26,045 nt of DNA, taken from a virus. The stretch covers positions 1 to 26,045 of the IMG/VR virus record IMGVR_UViG_3300042448_000231; one strand, written 5' to 3'. The position numbers were made by a program, and so were the translations under genes. Each line of letters starts with the position of its first letter. Within the stretch, counting starts at the first letter, position 1. Below are positions 13,481 to 16,541 of the stretch, piece after piece. A model generated the notes under the pieces. The model did not search any database. It had not been told where the DNA came from and worked only from the letters and a program-made list of their open reading frames with translations.

Positions 13481-13530
13481 AATATATATCGCCTTTGGTA
13501 CGCTAAAGGCTAATAACAGAGATATATATT
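13481..13530. repeat. Nested inverted repeat (10-bp arms, inner 6-bp hairpin)
   Basis: Arms AATATATATC (13481-13490) and GATATATATT (13521-13530) are perfect complements. Inside is a hairpin GCCTTT/AAAGGC (13491-13496 with 13505-13510). It lies at the end of the gene whose stop is at 13529, so it may act as a weak terminator or an RNA-processing site. A TAnnTTTG-like box (TATATTTG, minus strand, 13492-13485) overlaps the arm but lacks a -33 partner. Confidence 0.5.
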
Positions 13531-13732
13531 ATAATGCTTTAATAGCATCAGTCAGCTGTAACATAGAAACATGCTTAACTAATACAACTGACTCCTTTGG
13601 AACAAACCTATAAGGAGCATAGTCATCGTGTTCTACGTCATATCTAACATGGTTATCTATATACTGAACATCATTAGTAAGTACAAGTTCTTCTTCTAAT
13701 GTTATAGGATCTAATATTATTATTGCTTTCAT
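13529..13732 (-). CDS. Small hypothetical protein
   Basis: A 67-aa protein with beta-strand character (MKAIIILDPITLEEELVLTN) and a mixed acidic centre. It starts 5 nt after the stop of the upstream gene. No motif recognised. The stop codon lies inside the right arm of the inverted repeat at 13481-13530. Confidence 0.6.
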   Translation of the reverse strand: MKAIIILDPITLEEELVLTNDVQYIDNHVRYDVEHDDYAPYRFVPKESVVLVKHVSMLQLTDAIKAL

Positions 13733-13737
13733 ATGTA

Positions 13738-14256
13738 TTATATTACAGTTGTTTCTAATGTGTTTATTCTTTTAAATAGATTGTGTATGTTATTACCACC
13801 ATTAAGCGTCTTGACATGTATATATTTATACTCATCAGTGTTTAATTGAATAACAGCAGCTATAGGATCTTCCCAATTATCAGAGCCATATCTTAATGCT
13901 AAACAGGCAAGATCATCAAGATCAGTGATTTCTCCTTCTGCATTAGAAGGAAATACCATTGTTTCTGCTAGTTTATAACTGGTGGAAGCAACAACATACT
14001 CTGGATGAGCGTCAATATAATCTGTACGATTAAGCTCATGAGCTAATTGTTCTGCAGCCTCATTTTCAGCAGCCATTTGATTGTAATCATCATCAGACCA
14101 TTCCATTTGATCTTTATCATTATAATCATCTCTAGCCATTTGATCAGCATCGTCTTCAGGTGCTCCTGAATTAAGATAAGCTCCTGAATCAACATAGTCA
14201 AATACATCTTGTAATGTAATAAACCCATTGTCTAATAGAATTTGAATCTTCTTCAT
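13738..14256 (-). CDS. Acidic hypothetical protein
   Basis: A 172-aa acidic protein. A Gln/Asp/Asn-rich low-complexity stretch (about 33-75, repeats of DDYN and DQM) precedes a more ordered C-terminal half (TDLDDLACLALRYGSDNWED). No known domain. Its 5' side is a long gene-free stretch full of structured repeats (14257-14644) with a host-type promoter candidate at its head, so this gene may be controlled by a structured leader. Confidence 0.65.
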   Translation of the reverse strand: MKKIQILLDNGFITLQDVFDYVDSGAYLNSGAPEDDADQMARDDYNDKDQMEWSDDDYNQMAAENEAAEQLAHELNRTDYIDAHPEYVVASTSYKLAETMVFPSNAEGEITDLDDLACLALRYGSDNWEDPIAAVIQLNTDEYKYIHVKTLNGGNNIHNLFKRINTLETTVI

Positions 14257-14285
14257 GTGTTTTTTATTTAATATGTGTGTAAAAC

Positions 14286-14342
14286 GAATATATAGCCTAA
14301 TGTTGCCTCAGCTTATATATTCTAATGTATTCATATGCAACA
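14286..14342 (-). ncRNA. Hairpin with pseudoknot, leader element 1
   Basis: Arms GAATATATA (14286-14294) and TATATATTC (14314-14322) pair over 9 bp, with a further GC/GC step across a one-base bulge. The loop sequence TGTTGC (14301-14306) is complementary over 6 bp to GCAACA at 14337-14342, outside the hairpin, giving pseudoknot topology. Flanking genes are on the minus strand, so it would form in the leader of the gene starting at 14256. Seen in sequence; function unknown. Confidence 0.4.
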
Positions 14343-14350
14343 AATAAAAA

Positions 14351-14449
14351 TGTTATATCCTCACAATCTGTGCACTAAACTCTAGTTGATCAGACTGTCT
14401 GTTCCCAACAGCTTTATGTTGGCTTATAATTGGCTATTTGGATATAACA
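14351..14449 (-). ncRNA. Multi-helix structured element, leader element 2
   Basis: A 10-bp perfect closing stem (14351-14360 with 14440-14449) encloses 79 nt. Inside are a 6-bp hairpin CCAACA/TGTTGG (14405-14410 with 14417-14422) and, on the minus strand, a 7-bp helix CAGTCTG/CAGATTG with one wobble. No tRNA features (T-loop, CCA, anticodon arm) fit. A 5' leader structure or small RNA is the best reading. Confidence 0.45.
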
Positions 14450-14520
14450 ACCTAAATCACCAATGCTCTATTATATCTGTATTAGGTTGTACGTATGATA
14501 TAATAGTTAAATAACATTGG
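14447..14520 (-). ncRNA. Pseudoknotted hairpin, leader element 3
   Basis: A nested hairpin: CCAATG (14460-14465) with CATTGG (14515-14520), then a 10-bp perfect stem CTATTATATC (14468-14477) with GATATAATAG (14497-14506) and a 19-nt loop. Nine loop bases (14482-14490, TTAGGTTGT) are perfectly complementary to ACAACCTAA at 14447-14455 outside the hairpin, a true pseudoknot. That outer arm shares 3 bases with the closing stem of element 2, so the two folds partly exclude each other. The element starts just after the predicted transcription start of the promoter at 14544-14576. Confidence 0.5.
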
Positions 14521-14521
14521 C

Positions 14522-14642
14522 TACCATTCAATCCCTCTGTACTCAAATGTATAATACCTGTATGCTTAATAACAAAACCCTATAAGAGCATTTAACTCTT
14601 AGTATTACTACATCTGTCTATCCTTGGGAAATAGAAATGGTA
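14522..14642. repeat. Long imperfect palindrome overlapping a promoter
   Basis: Outer arms TACCATT (14522-14528) and AATGGTA (14636-14642). Inside, on the minus strand, a 14-bp helix with one bulge and one wobble forms between about 14602-14616 and 14544-14557, plus hairpins TAAGAG/CTCTTA (14583-14601) and TCTAT/ATAGA. On paper it folds as a three-way junction. It overlaps the host-type promoter candidate, so DNA-level (operator) and RNA-level readings are both possible. Confidence 0.45.
14544..14576 (-). promoter_or_regulatory. Bacteroidota-type promoter candidate
   Basis: On the minus strand TTTG (14576-14573) is followed after 21 nt by TACATTTG (14551-14544), matching the -33 TTTG and -7 TAnnTTTG consensus of Bacteroidota. 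Transcription would begin near 14537 and run through the structured elements into the gene starting at 14256. Confidence 0.5.
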
Positions 14643-14644
14643 CA

Positions 14645-14797
14645 TTAAAACATAAGACTATTCCATCTATGTGTAATATCTCCAATGGTAAATCTTATAT
14701 ATCCATTGTATGATGTAAATATCTTACCCAAATCCTTGTGTTCTCCTTGTACATATCCATTATCTAATAGATATACAATCTTTTGTTCTGTTGTCAT
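14645..14797 (-). CDS. Small hypothetical protein (50 aa)
   Basis: ATG at 14797 to TAA at 14645-14647 encodes 50 aa beginning MTTEQKIVYLLDNGYVQGEH, a mix of helix and strand residues with a well-balanced composition. The N-terminus (QKIVYLLDNGYV) resembles that of the protein starting at 14256 (KKIQILLDNGFI), so the two may share a short common module. The 13-mer ACACATTATTAAT lies 19 nt upstream of its start. Confidence 0.5.
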   Translation of the reverse strand: MTTEQKIVYLLDNGYVQGEHKDLGKIFTSYNGYIRFTIGDITHRWNSLMF

Positions 14798-14815
14798 ATA
14801 AATATGATTTAATTA

Positions 14816-14828
14816 ATTAATAATGTGT
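14816..14828 (-). promoter_or_regulatory. Repeated upstream 13-mer, copy 2
   Basis: An exact copy of ACACATTATTAAT (minus strand), 19 nt before the start at 14797; it overlaps the last codons of the upstream small gene. Copies 2 and 3 agree over 15 bases (GACACATTATTAATT). Confidence 0.4.
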
Positions 14829-14951
14829 CTCATAGTCAATAATATCATCCCAATCAAGACCAGAAGCCTTAATCATCTTATCAGTAGGATAACTATCAAA
14901 CACCCTAGTGTTAATAGATCCATCTTTCATAAAGAATATCGTATTGTACAT
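14817..14951 (-). CDS. Small acidic hypothetical protein (44 aa)
   Basis: ATG at 14951 to TAA at 14817-14819 encodes 44 aa beginning MYNTIFFMKDGSINTRVFDS and ending in an acidic DWDDIIDYETHY. The composition is protein-like and the A/T-rich leader matches other genes of the strand. Function unknown. It lies downstream of a TTGACA-type promoter-like sequence and the third copy of the 13-mer. Confidence 0.5.
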   Translation of the reverse strand: MYNTIFFMKDGSINTRVFDSYPTDKMIKASGLDWDDIIDYETHY

Positions 14952-14981
14952 ATAAATGTTATTTAATGCTATATATATTGT

Positions 14982-15021
14982 ATTGTATAGCGTGAATTAA
15001 TAATGTGTCAAAATGTGTCAA
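14982..15021 (-). promoter_or_regulatory. Promoter-like region with 13-mer copy 3 and tandem TTGACA
   Basis: Minus strand: TTGACACATT occurs twice in tandem (15021-15016 and 15011-15006 for the TTGACA parts). The nearer is followed after 18 nt by TACAAT (14987-14982). The 13-mer ACACATTATTAAT occupies 15008-14996. This looks like a sigma70-type promoter, unusual for a Bacteroidota phage, or a binding site for a phage factor. Confidence 0.4.
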
Positions 15022-15024
15022 TAA

Positions 15025-15102
15025 GTGGGTAAAGAGTACACACCATCTCTCACATTCTCATATAAAATATTGAGAATCAGTGAGTTATATAATTATTCCC
15101 AC
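15025..15102. repeat. Nested inverted repeat
   Basis: Outer GTGGG (15025-15029) pairs with CCCAC (15098-15102). An inner stem of 12 bp with a 2-nt bulge joins 15049-15060 to 15071-15084 (ATTCTCA/TGAGAAT and CTCAC/GTGAG). A small hairpin GTGTT/AACAC (15109-15121) follows. No gene lies here; it may be an RNA element ahead of the small genes, or a processing site. Confidence 0.45.
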
Positions 15103-15126
15103 CCAGATGTGTTGCTAACACCCACC

Positions 15127-15182
15127 CTTATATACGAATAAGGGAAAACAAGAGCTTGGATGATGTTCCAAGCCCTTGTTAA
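15127..15182 (-). terminator. Strong Rho-independent terminator plus second hairpin
   Basis: A 13-bp stem (15149-15161 with 15170-15182), loop of 8, followed on the minus strand by TTTTCCC. One U-G pair on the minus-strand RNA is an A-C mismatch on the plus strand. Directly beyond it lies a second perfect 7-bp hairpin CCCTTAT/ATAAGGG (15127-15133 with 15140-15146). It ends the monocistronic gene at 15191-15616. Confidence 0.85.
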
Positions 15183-15190
15183 GTGTGAGA

Positions 15191-15616
15191 TTAAGCCCCT
15201 GCCAACTCTTCAAGCTCTGCTTCGCTTGTGATGCCCACAGCAGTGTACTCTTTCTTGATAGCCTGTGCAACTTCTGCATCTAATGTAGCGTCTATCACGT
15301 GAGCGTCAATGTACTCTTTCTTGGTCTTGAACACTGCAGTTGCAGTATCACGAGTCATTGTGAACTTTCCATCTGCATAAGGAATGTAGATTGGATTGTT
15401 GTCTGCATCAACCATTGGTTGCTTGGTTGTAGGGTCAAGCTTTGGTCTTGCACCATAAGTCTTCTTTGCAACTATAGCGAAGAATTGCTTAAATTCTTCA
15501 TCTTTCTTAATGCCCAATGCATCCATCTGACGCTTGTAGATGTGGATTCTTTCGCCTTTAGTGTTGTAACCATTGAAGTTACCATTTGGTGAGAAGTTGC
15601 CTGAATTGATTACCAT
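15191..15616 (-). CDS. Hypothetical protein, monocistronic, probably abundant
   Basis: A 141-aa protein starting MVINSGNFSPNGNFNGYNTK and ending in an acidic Ala/Glu tail (EAELEELAGA). No known domain recognised. It is the first minus-strand gene beside the divergent control region and is closed by the strongest terminator in the window. Its codons are visibly less AT-rich than those of its neighbours. Together these suggest an abundant, separately regulated, perhaps early product. Confidence 0.7.
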   Translation of the reverse strand: MVINSGNFSPNGNFNGYNTKGERIHIYKRQMDALGIKKDEEFKQFFAIVAKKTYGARPKLDPTTKQPMVDADNNPIYIPYADGKFTMTRDTATAVFKTKKEYIDAHVIDATLDAEVAQAIKKEYTAVGITSEAELEELAGA

Positions 15617-15663
15617 AACGAATTTTACAGTTTTGTAGTGGTGTCTCCACTATAGGTTTGTTA

Positions 15664-15691
15664 ATTGTGAGCCATAGGGGGGATATGTCAA
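15664..15691 (-). promoter_or_regulatory. Promoter-like TTGACA / CACAAT
   Basis: Minus strand: TTGACA (15691-15686), 16 nt, CACAAT (15669-15664), upstream of the gene starting at 15616. The -10 match is 4 of 6. A small hairpin TAGTGG/CCACTA follows in the leader. Weak support. Confidence 0.3.
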
Positions 15692-15763
15692 CCCCCTGTT
15701 TTGTGCACGGGGGTGCAATCTGGGTTACCCTCCTCCCCCATGGACACAAAAGGGGTAGGGGGC
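15672..15763. other. G-tract/C-tract block in AT-rich DNA
   Basis: Runs of G at 15677-15682, 15709-15713, 15722-15724, 15752-15755 and 15758-15762, and of C at 15692-15696 and 15735-15739, stand out in otherwise AT-rich DNA. AGGGGG/CCCCCT and CCCC/GGGG can form hairpins; the plus-strand G-tracts could also form a quadruplex. Confidence 0.5.
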
Positions 15764-16213
15764 TATATAAAATTTTGGGCCTAAGCAGGGGATAGTTCCA
15801 CAAGGAACGTTTGCATGAATTTTTCCAAATTCTTCATGCACATTGTGTCACAGTTTTTCAAATATTTGTGACATATTTATATAGGTATTTGTTACAGATT
15901 TATATATATAGGTAACAAAGACTTCCAGGGTTGGCTGTGTTTCACTTCCTGATTTGGCAAGTTATAGCTTGATTATATTCTGCCAAAAGTCAATCTATAG
16001 CTTTACATAATGTGTCTTATAAGGGACATGCTCAGCTTAACAATGTTGCTTTTATGACACATTATGATATGTCTTTACATATAATGATGGAATCATCTTA
16101 CATATTATATGTTATAGCATATTGTTGCTCCCAACAAAATGGACCAATATTATAATATCCTGTTGTATCAAAACTAGAAAATCCTGCAAGTTTTGATAAT
16201 AGGAAAAAATAAA

Positions 16214-16246
16214 TTTGGTGGGTAATATATTTTCACACTACCTTTG
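16214..16246 (+). promoter_or_regulatory. Bacteroidota-type promoter for rightward genes
   Basis: TTTG at 16214-16217, 21 nt, TACCTTTG at 16239-16246, matching the host consensus TTTG and TAnnTTTG. The predicted start is near 16252, giving a leader of about 40 nt to the gene at 16296. Confidence 0.6.
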
Positions 16247-16295
16247 AGGGTGGAGGGTGGGTTGTATGCTCCTCTCTTAAATAAAGCTTAGATAT

Positions 16296-16541
16296 ATGGT
16301 AGTAGTAAATGTGTTGTTGGTGATGGTGACAGTTTTGAGTATGGCAGTGATTGTATGGGGGTTTTACCACTTTGATGAATACGAGATAGGTATAGAGTTT
16401 CTCCCTAAAGACTACAATAGTTTTGAACTAGGGGTGTCTAATAGAAACTACAAGCTAGATGATGGAGGATTAGAACAAGAGCTTAGGATAGGACTGTTGT
16501 TATTCAGTGTTATTTTCCTGTTTAGGAGATTTGATGCATAA
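16296..16541 (+). CDS. Small membrane protein, first rightward gene
   Basis: An 81-aa protein with a strongly hydrophobic N-terminal helix (about 3-24, VVNVLLVMVTVLSMAVIVWG) and a second hydrophobic stretch near the C-terminus (LRIGLLLFSVIFLF), with a soluble acidic region between. It follows the host-type promoter at 16214-16246 and precedes a second one. Function unknown; the place next to an early-type promoter would suit a host-envelope effector. Confidence 0.55.
   Translation: MVVVNVLLVMVTVLSMAVIVWGFYHFDEYEIGIEFLPKDYNSFELGVSNRNYKLDDGGLEQELRIGLLLFSVIFLFRRFDA

Follow-up and report, generated by a model that had tools for sequence, protein, structure and literature searches.

A pseudoknot-capable RNA cassette beside a conserved three-way-junction scaffold in the leader of a crAss-like phage

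PK1 is a minus-strand RNA element of a crAss-like phage which is able to form a pseudoknot beyond what chance would provide, and for which comparison with one relative (L082) supports purifying selection. It is located in a window (the whole 26,045-nucleotide stretch analysed here) that is a fragment of the phage genome, with the DNA polymerase and primase genes on the left (minus strand) and the terminase and portal genes on the right (plus strand); judged by its terminase, the nearest named phage is Leptolyngbya phage Lbo-JY46 (39%). From the comparison of related loci, PK1 appears to be one swappable cassette in the leader of the leftward (early or replication) module. Directly upstream on the minus strand it is adjoined by scaffold B, a conserved three-way-junction RNA which is the larger discovery of the two. 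The order of elements on this strand is scaffold B, PK1, a second pseudoknot (PK2) and the first gene (Table 1).

The sequence-only reading had described a 10-bp stem with a 19-nt loop, closed by a further 6-bp stem, in which nine loop nucleotides are complementary to a strand outside the hairpin, and all three pairings are indeed perfect on the minus strand. The inner and outer stems are separated by an 8 x 2 internal loop, and a linker of 4 nt connects the outer stem with the pseudoknot strand. PK1 occurs once in the window, between the small ORF and the 172-aa ORF where no ORFs of at least 50 aa are found, and the cassette directly follows the GAGGGATT of scaffold B, a boundary defined by comparing the window with L082 and L090. 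The same reading held the arrangement to be improbable by chance, which is borne out by shuffling. Of 400 dinucleotide shuffles of the 745-nt leader, 23 contain a perfect hairpin of at least 10 bp with a loop of 10-30 nt; none of the 400, and none of 30 shuffles of the whole window, contains such a hairpin together with a loop complement of at least 9 nt, and when the hairpin is taken as given the complement has P = 0.0037. The nested fold alone is unremarkable (z = -1.1 against shuffles), and the improbable part of PK1 is the pseudoknot complementarity, not the nested fold. PK1 would have the topology of an H-type pseudoknot, the hairpin loop being complementary to its flank beyond chance.

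The calculated energies are -11.5 kcal/mol for the inner and outer stems, -15.2 for the best nested fold and -10.0 for the pseudoknot duplex. When the geometry is worked out by hand, the pseudoknot with an open outer stem has loops of 6, 4 and 12 nt and is comfortable, whereas with a closed outer stem 4 nt have to span some 18 stacked pairs. In such a model the closed outer stem and the pseudoknot could possibly coexist, but only if the second stem folds back.

Table 1. Features of the leader and its surroundings in the window
Feature	Position	Strand	Remarks
172-aa ORF, the first long one past the leader	13738..14256	-	No family match
PK2, H-type pseudoknot	14286..14342	-	TGTTGC 14342-14337 with GCAACA 14306-14301
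PK2, second pairing	14322-14314/14294-14286	-	GAATATATA with TATATATTC
Third module	14352..14448	-	From folding; closing stem GTTATATCC 14448-14440 with GGATATAAC 14360-14352, then ATTTTTATTTG
PK1 cassette	14443..14528	-	Comprises the long hairpin, its outer stem and the strand that pairs with the loop
PK1 outer stem, 5' strand	14515..14520	-	CCAATG
PK1 inner stem, 5' strand	14497..14506	-	CTATTATATC
PK1 loop strand	14482..14490	-	ACAACCTAA; partner is 14447-14455
PK1 inner stem, 3' strand	14468..14477	-	GATATAATAG
PK1 outer stem, 3' strand	14460..14465	-	CATTGG; CGTTGG in L082, U-G pairing retained
PK1 pseudoknot strand	14447..14455	-	TTAGGTTGT; L082 retains 7 of 9 pairs
Scaffold B	14532..14647	-	Three-way junction and putative pseudoknot; covariance model, E 6.7e-23
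Scaffold B P1	14644-14640/14542-14538	-	
Scaffold B P2	14634-14631/14621-14618	-	
Scaffold B P3	14616-14608/14552-14544	-	Variable arm, carries variable insert
Scaffold B putative pseudoknot	14629-14626/14535-14532	-	UCCC with GGGA; 3-4 bp
Bacteroidota-type promoter match	14544..14576	-	TTTG-N21-TACATTTG; overlaps scaffold B P3
Small ORF, 50 aa	14645..14797	-	Stop codon overlaps first bases of scaffold B
Sigma70-type promoter match	14982..15011	-	TTGACA-18-TACAAT; upstream of small ORFs

The locus was followed through 80 viral loci found via the terminase, whose noncoding regions were aligned to define conserved blocks. L082 carries the one independent homolog of PK1. Between the window and L082, 47 of the 50 paired sites of PK1 are identical (94%) as compared to 16 of the 24 unpaired sites (67%; Fisher P = 0.004), so that 3 paired and 8 unpaired sites differ, and the unpaired figure is close to the 66% identity at third positions of conserved TerL codons. 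One of the paired changes converts a U-A to a U-G pair in the minus-strand RNA and would give A-C if the plus strand were read, which supports the minus strand as the RNA. The two others cost the pseudoknot helix two of its 9 bp, leaving 7, and weaken its duplex energy from -10.0 to -6.3 kcal/mol. Of the covariation that had been proposed as a check on the element, this comparison shows none: a single change, U-A to U-G, keeps its pair, and no pair differs on both sides. With two distinct PK1 sequences and no double-sided change, the pairing is unproved by covariation and is best described as probable rather than proved. Three pattern scans of viral contigs, a profile search and a covariance model over 99 sources found no wider PK1 family beyond the lineage of the window and L082/L084, and there is no general excess of pseudoknots among leader modules (mean z -0.08 over 83 pieces). 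An eight-base hairpin loop, AACGTATG, recurs in unrelated modules of L088, L105, L082 and L053, located in P3 or downstream, and the PK1 loop of the window holds its near-complement, CATACGTA.

Scaffold B is far more widespread. Its core pattern is found in 84 stretches of viral contigs (70 distinct), and where its carriers were compared by terminase, identity to that of the window runs from 96% to about 25-30%, with 20 of 49 records, mostly short contigs, giving no terminase match. Over all phages with the scaffold the terminases extend from 99% to about 25% identity. This range suggests that scaffold B is old and probably matters to the phages. In 26 aligned sequences its pairing holds in 97.4% of cells, compared with 88.4% after shuffling and no more than 55% after sliding, and double-sided changes occur in ten pairs (one in P1, three in P2 and six in P3); an alignment of 59 rows gives the same covariation picture. 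The UCCC of the P2 loop faces GGGA/G after P1, and the pseudoknot proposed between them is putative because these pairs hardly vary. The invariant single-stranded positions suggest a specific partner. In the genomes compared, scaffold B is divergent to TerL and is followed by an ORF. The strict pattern finds one copy per genome, to which the covariance model adds copies that have diverged or stand in tandem, with a maximum of three or four in L144 and the L155 genome, and in some genomes the tandem copies have no ORF in between. Genomes with two or three copies have them at 4540-5223 of L144 (minus strand), 2621-3057 of L122 (plus) and 1301-1435 and 3762-3901 of L156 (plus); some of the multiple copies have slightly different cores (ACCATAACTCAC or ACCATTCTCAC), and a further long module, GGATATGAAGACTTCT...GATGTGAAACCAC, recurs near or inside the scaffold copies of L047, L103 and L156. 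No credible BLAST match to scaffold B was obtained in the phage collection and none by pattern in bacterial genome contigs, and a weak match in Lbo-JY46 (E 0.01-0.06) was judged unproven. The notion that scaffold B is always entered through a TAA stop was rejected as well, as the upstream ORF stops there in a minority of loci.

Around this scaffold the other modules come and go. L004-L006 lack PK1 at a TerL identity of 99%, L082 has it at 85%, and L090 (also 85%) carries the P3 insert of the window at 96% and proceeds without PK1 from the scaffold directly to PK2. The module that follows PK1 in L082 is also found in L053, there without PK1, and one H-type module lies inside P3 of L030 and behind the scaffold in L033. 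At 3928-4085 of L004 and 4071-4143 of L058 (both minus strand) there are tRNA-like modules which score 36.7 and 44.4 bits against Rfam RF00005 and are not called as tRNAs by ARAGORN; the insert in L004 interrupts the P2 hairpin of the scaffold, a part of which it duplicates. ARAGORN does predict a tmRNA at 744-1161 of L028 (minus strand) with a tag ending in AVAA, which may be a false positive. These comparisons show that the gain, loss and relocation of the cassettes around PK1 do not track the terminase phylogeny.

Downstream of PK1, the third module overlaps the end of the PK1 pseudoknot strand by 2 nt, and no homolog of it was found by BLAST in the noncoding region of the relatives. In relatives PK2 precedes different genes, lying a short and similar distance upstream of their start codons. 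The whole 284-nt leader folds beyond its shuffles (z -3.2), and a comparison of leaders with random windows gives mean z values of -2.5 and -1.3 versus -0.5 (P = 4e-9), the leaders being the more structured. The folding energy of leaders shows no strand preference (P = 0.19), the excess on the opposite strand being equally strong, and it therefore leaves the strand unfixed. The divergent intergenic region also contains inverted repeats at 16006-16066 and 16067-16122, the former of which is conserved in relatives in both orientations according to BLAST.

PK1 had been placed at the head of a leader and was expected to be the first thing transcribed, from about 14537. The host-type promoter on which this placement was based does exist in the window as an exact TTTG-N21-TACATTTG match, yet its supposed -7 box sits in the 3' strand of scaffold B P3, and L082, the only other genome with PK1, has TATATGAG there and does not match the box. 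A transcript from about 14537 would miss the 5' half of scaffold B, although both halves covary, which argues against this start; scaffold B needs a transcript that begins upstream of 14647. Both parts of the proposal are therefore unsupported, the covariation-supported scaffold B being located directly upstream, and the promoter may possibly be active in the lineage of the window alone. The sigma70-type match further upstream was rejected as the driver since it is not kept in more distant relatives. Between 3837 and 16607 of the window there are 7 exact TTTG-N17-23-TANNTTTG matches versus 1.5 expected, a number reached in 0 of 100 shuffles, and a Shine-Dalgarno-like motif is missing from all 35 starts in the window; taken together these suggest that the host is probably a member of the Bacteroidota. 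A conserved block at 14940-15000 precedes the small ORFs, and many relatives have in it a hairpin (GCTATA..TATAGC) that lies about 15 nt before an ATG.

Searches of known families with Rfam, Pfam, PHROGs and PADLOC yielded no useful assignment. Rfam 15 gives no match at or above the gathering score in the window, nothing at E<=5 that overlaps 14440-14650 and no match to scaffold B in 12 relatives. Its GOLLD and ROOL models do not match at their thresholds, and the tRNA models match neither PK1 nor the scaffold in the window, the tRNA-like modules being confined to relatives. The GOLLD and ROOL RNAs known from phages and prophages are likewise pseudoknotted structured RNAs of unknown function, and GOLLD combines a conserved with a variable part, sometimes containing tRNAs, which is reminiscent of the variable P3 of scaffold B and the tRNA-like inserts; both are far larger, whereas scaffold B is about 115 nt long and is located before early genes (PMC12286853). 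Structured phage RNAs of unknown role are a known kind; what is new, as far as could be checked, is the combination of a conserved scaffold and exchangeable cassettes.

We tentatively give first place, at a confidence that stops short of likely, to PK1 acting in cis as a structural element by which the early leader is protected or insulated. PK1 would fold during RNA synthesis as an H-type pseudoknot with a 10-bp stem, a 9-bp second stem and a 12-nt third loop, the outer 6-bp stem being an alternative pairing, or strained if both form. The resulting compact block would shield the long leader in cis from nucleases or from mis-pairing with neighbours, and would be no specific sensor of the following gene, as the modules are tied to no one gene. 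As the cassettes swap freely and none is bound to one gene, a general structural function in cis is preferred. Another idea, that of a switch in which a protein or ligand would decide between the outer stem and the pseudoknot as competing pairings and thereby control the first gene, seems rather improbable. The 16 bp and internal loop that part the ends joined by the 4-nt linker would strain both pairings together, and the energies of stem, nested fold and pseudoknot duplex are of the same order; however, modules such as PK2 recur before unrelated downstream genes, which speaks against a gene-specific sensor, two sequences define no ligand-like conserved core, and the pseudoknot is weaker in L082. 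That the region acts as DNA, for instance by forming a cruciform or by belonging to an origin located between divergent gene modules, is very improbable. It is a divergent intergenic site and contains the additional inverted repeats described above, but the compensatory and G-U changes in the neighbouring scaffold B fit a single-stranded RNA and a pseudoknot topology is useless in a DNA cruciform.

Somewhat unlikely, though a real possibility, is that the leader is processed from one transcript into an array of small structured RNAs that act in trans as decoys or mimics against host defences. This would account for the rapid cassette exchange, in which presence and absence do not follow TerL, and for the tRNA-like modules of L004 and L058 which ARAGORN does not call; the tandem scaffold copies without intervening ORFs fit free-standing RNAs as well as a leader. 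There is a precedent in the pseudo-ToxI RNA of phage PhiTE (PMC3475682). The type III antitoxin ToxI resembles PK1 as a small pseudoknotted RNA of which phages can carry mimics, but consists of tandem repeats and is encoded next to a toxin gene (PMC3475682, PMC5772629), whereas no tandem repeats of the PK1 pseudoknot unit were found and PADLOC gives no toxin-related match in nine nearby ORFs and no credible defence-related gene nearby; a Cas9 match to an 82-aa ORF (E 0.0089) was judged to be due to chance. Moreover PK2, and often the scaffold, are located just before start codons, as elements of a leader would be. More doubtful is an antiterminator akin to the putRNA of phage HK022, in which the scaffold with PK1 as an add-on would bind RNA polymerase at the start of the long early operon and allow read-through of terminators. 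HK022 putRNA is a cis-acting structured RNA ahead of early phage genes and has been shown to act on RNA polymerase (PMC9378689), an action that is putative for scaffold B, which has a three-way junction with a pseudoknot and a variable arm and belongs to a different phage group. Scaffold B likewise precedes early genes that share its strand, is kept even where TerL identity is as low as 25-30%, lies divergent to TerL in the genomes compared, and has invariant single-stranded positions as would suit a specific partner. Against this, no terminator-like site is found on the minus strand of 13500-16400, there is no Rfam match, and PK1 itself is dispensable in most relatives.

No description of structured noncoding RNAs of crAss-like phages was found, most subscription papers being outside the search, and in the literature searched such RNAs are hardly described. 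Scaffold B may serve a broad crAss-like group as a docking scaffold for interchangeable cassettes in a fast-evolving early RNA array, possibly of anti-defence decoys, a proposal which is somewhat unlikely to be right as a whole. PK1 is one part of this larger RNA array, and the exchange of cassettes among relatives provides a natural series of variants in which the job of the RNA can be tested.
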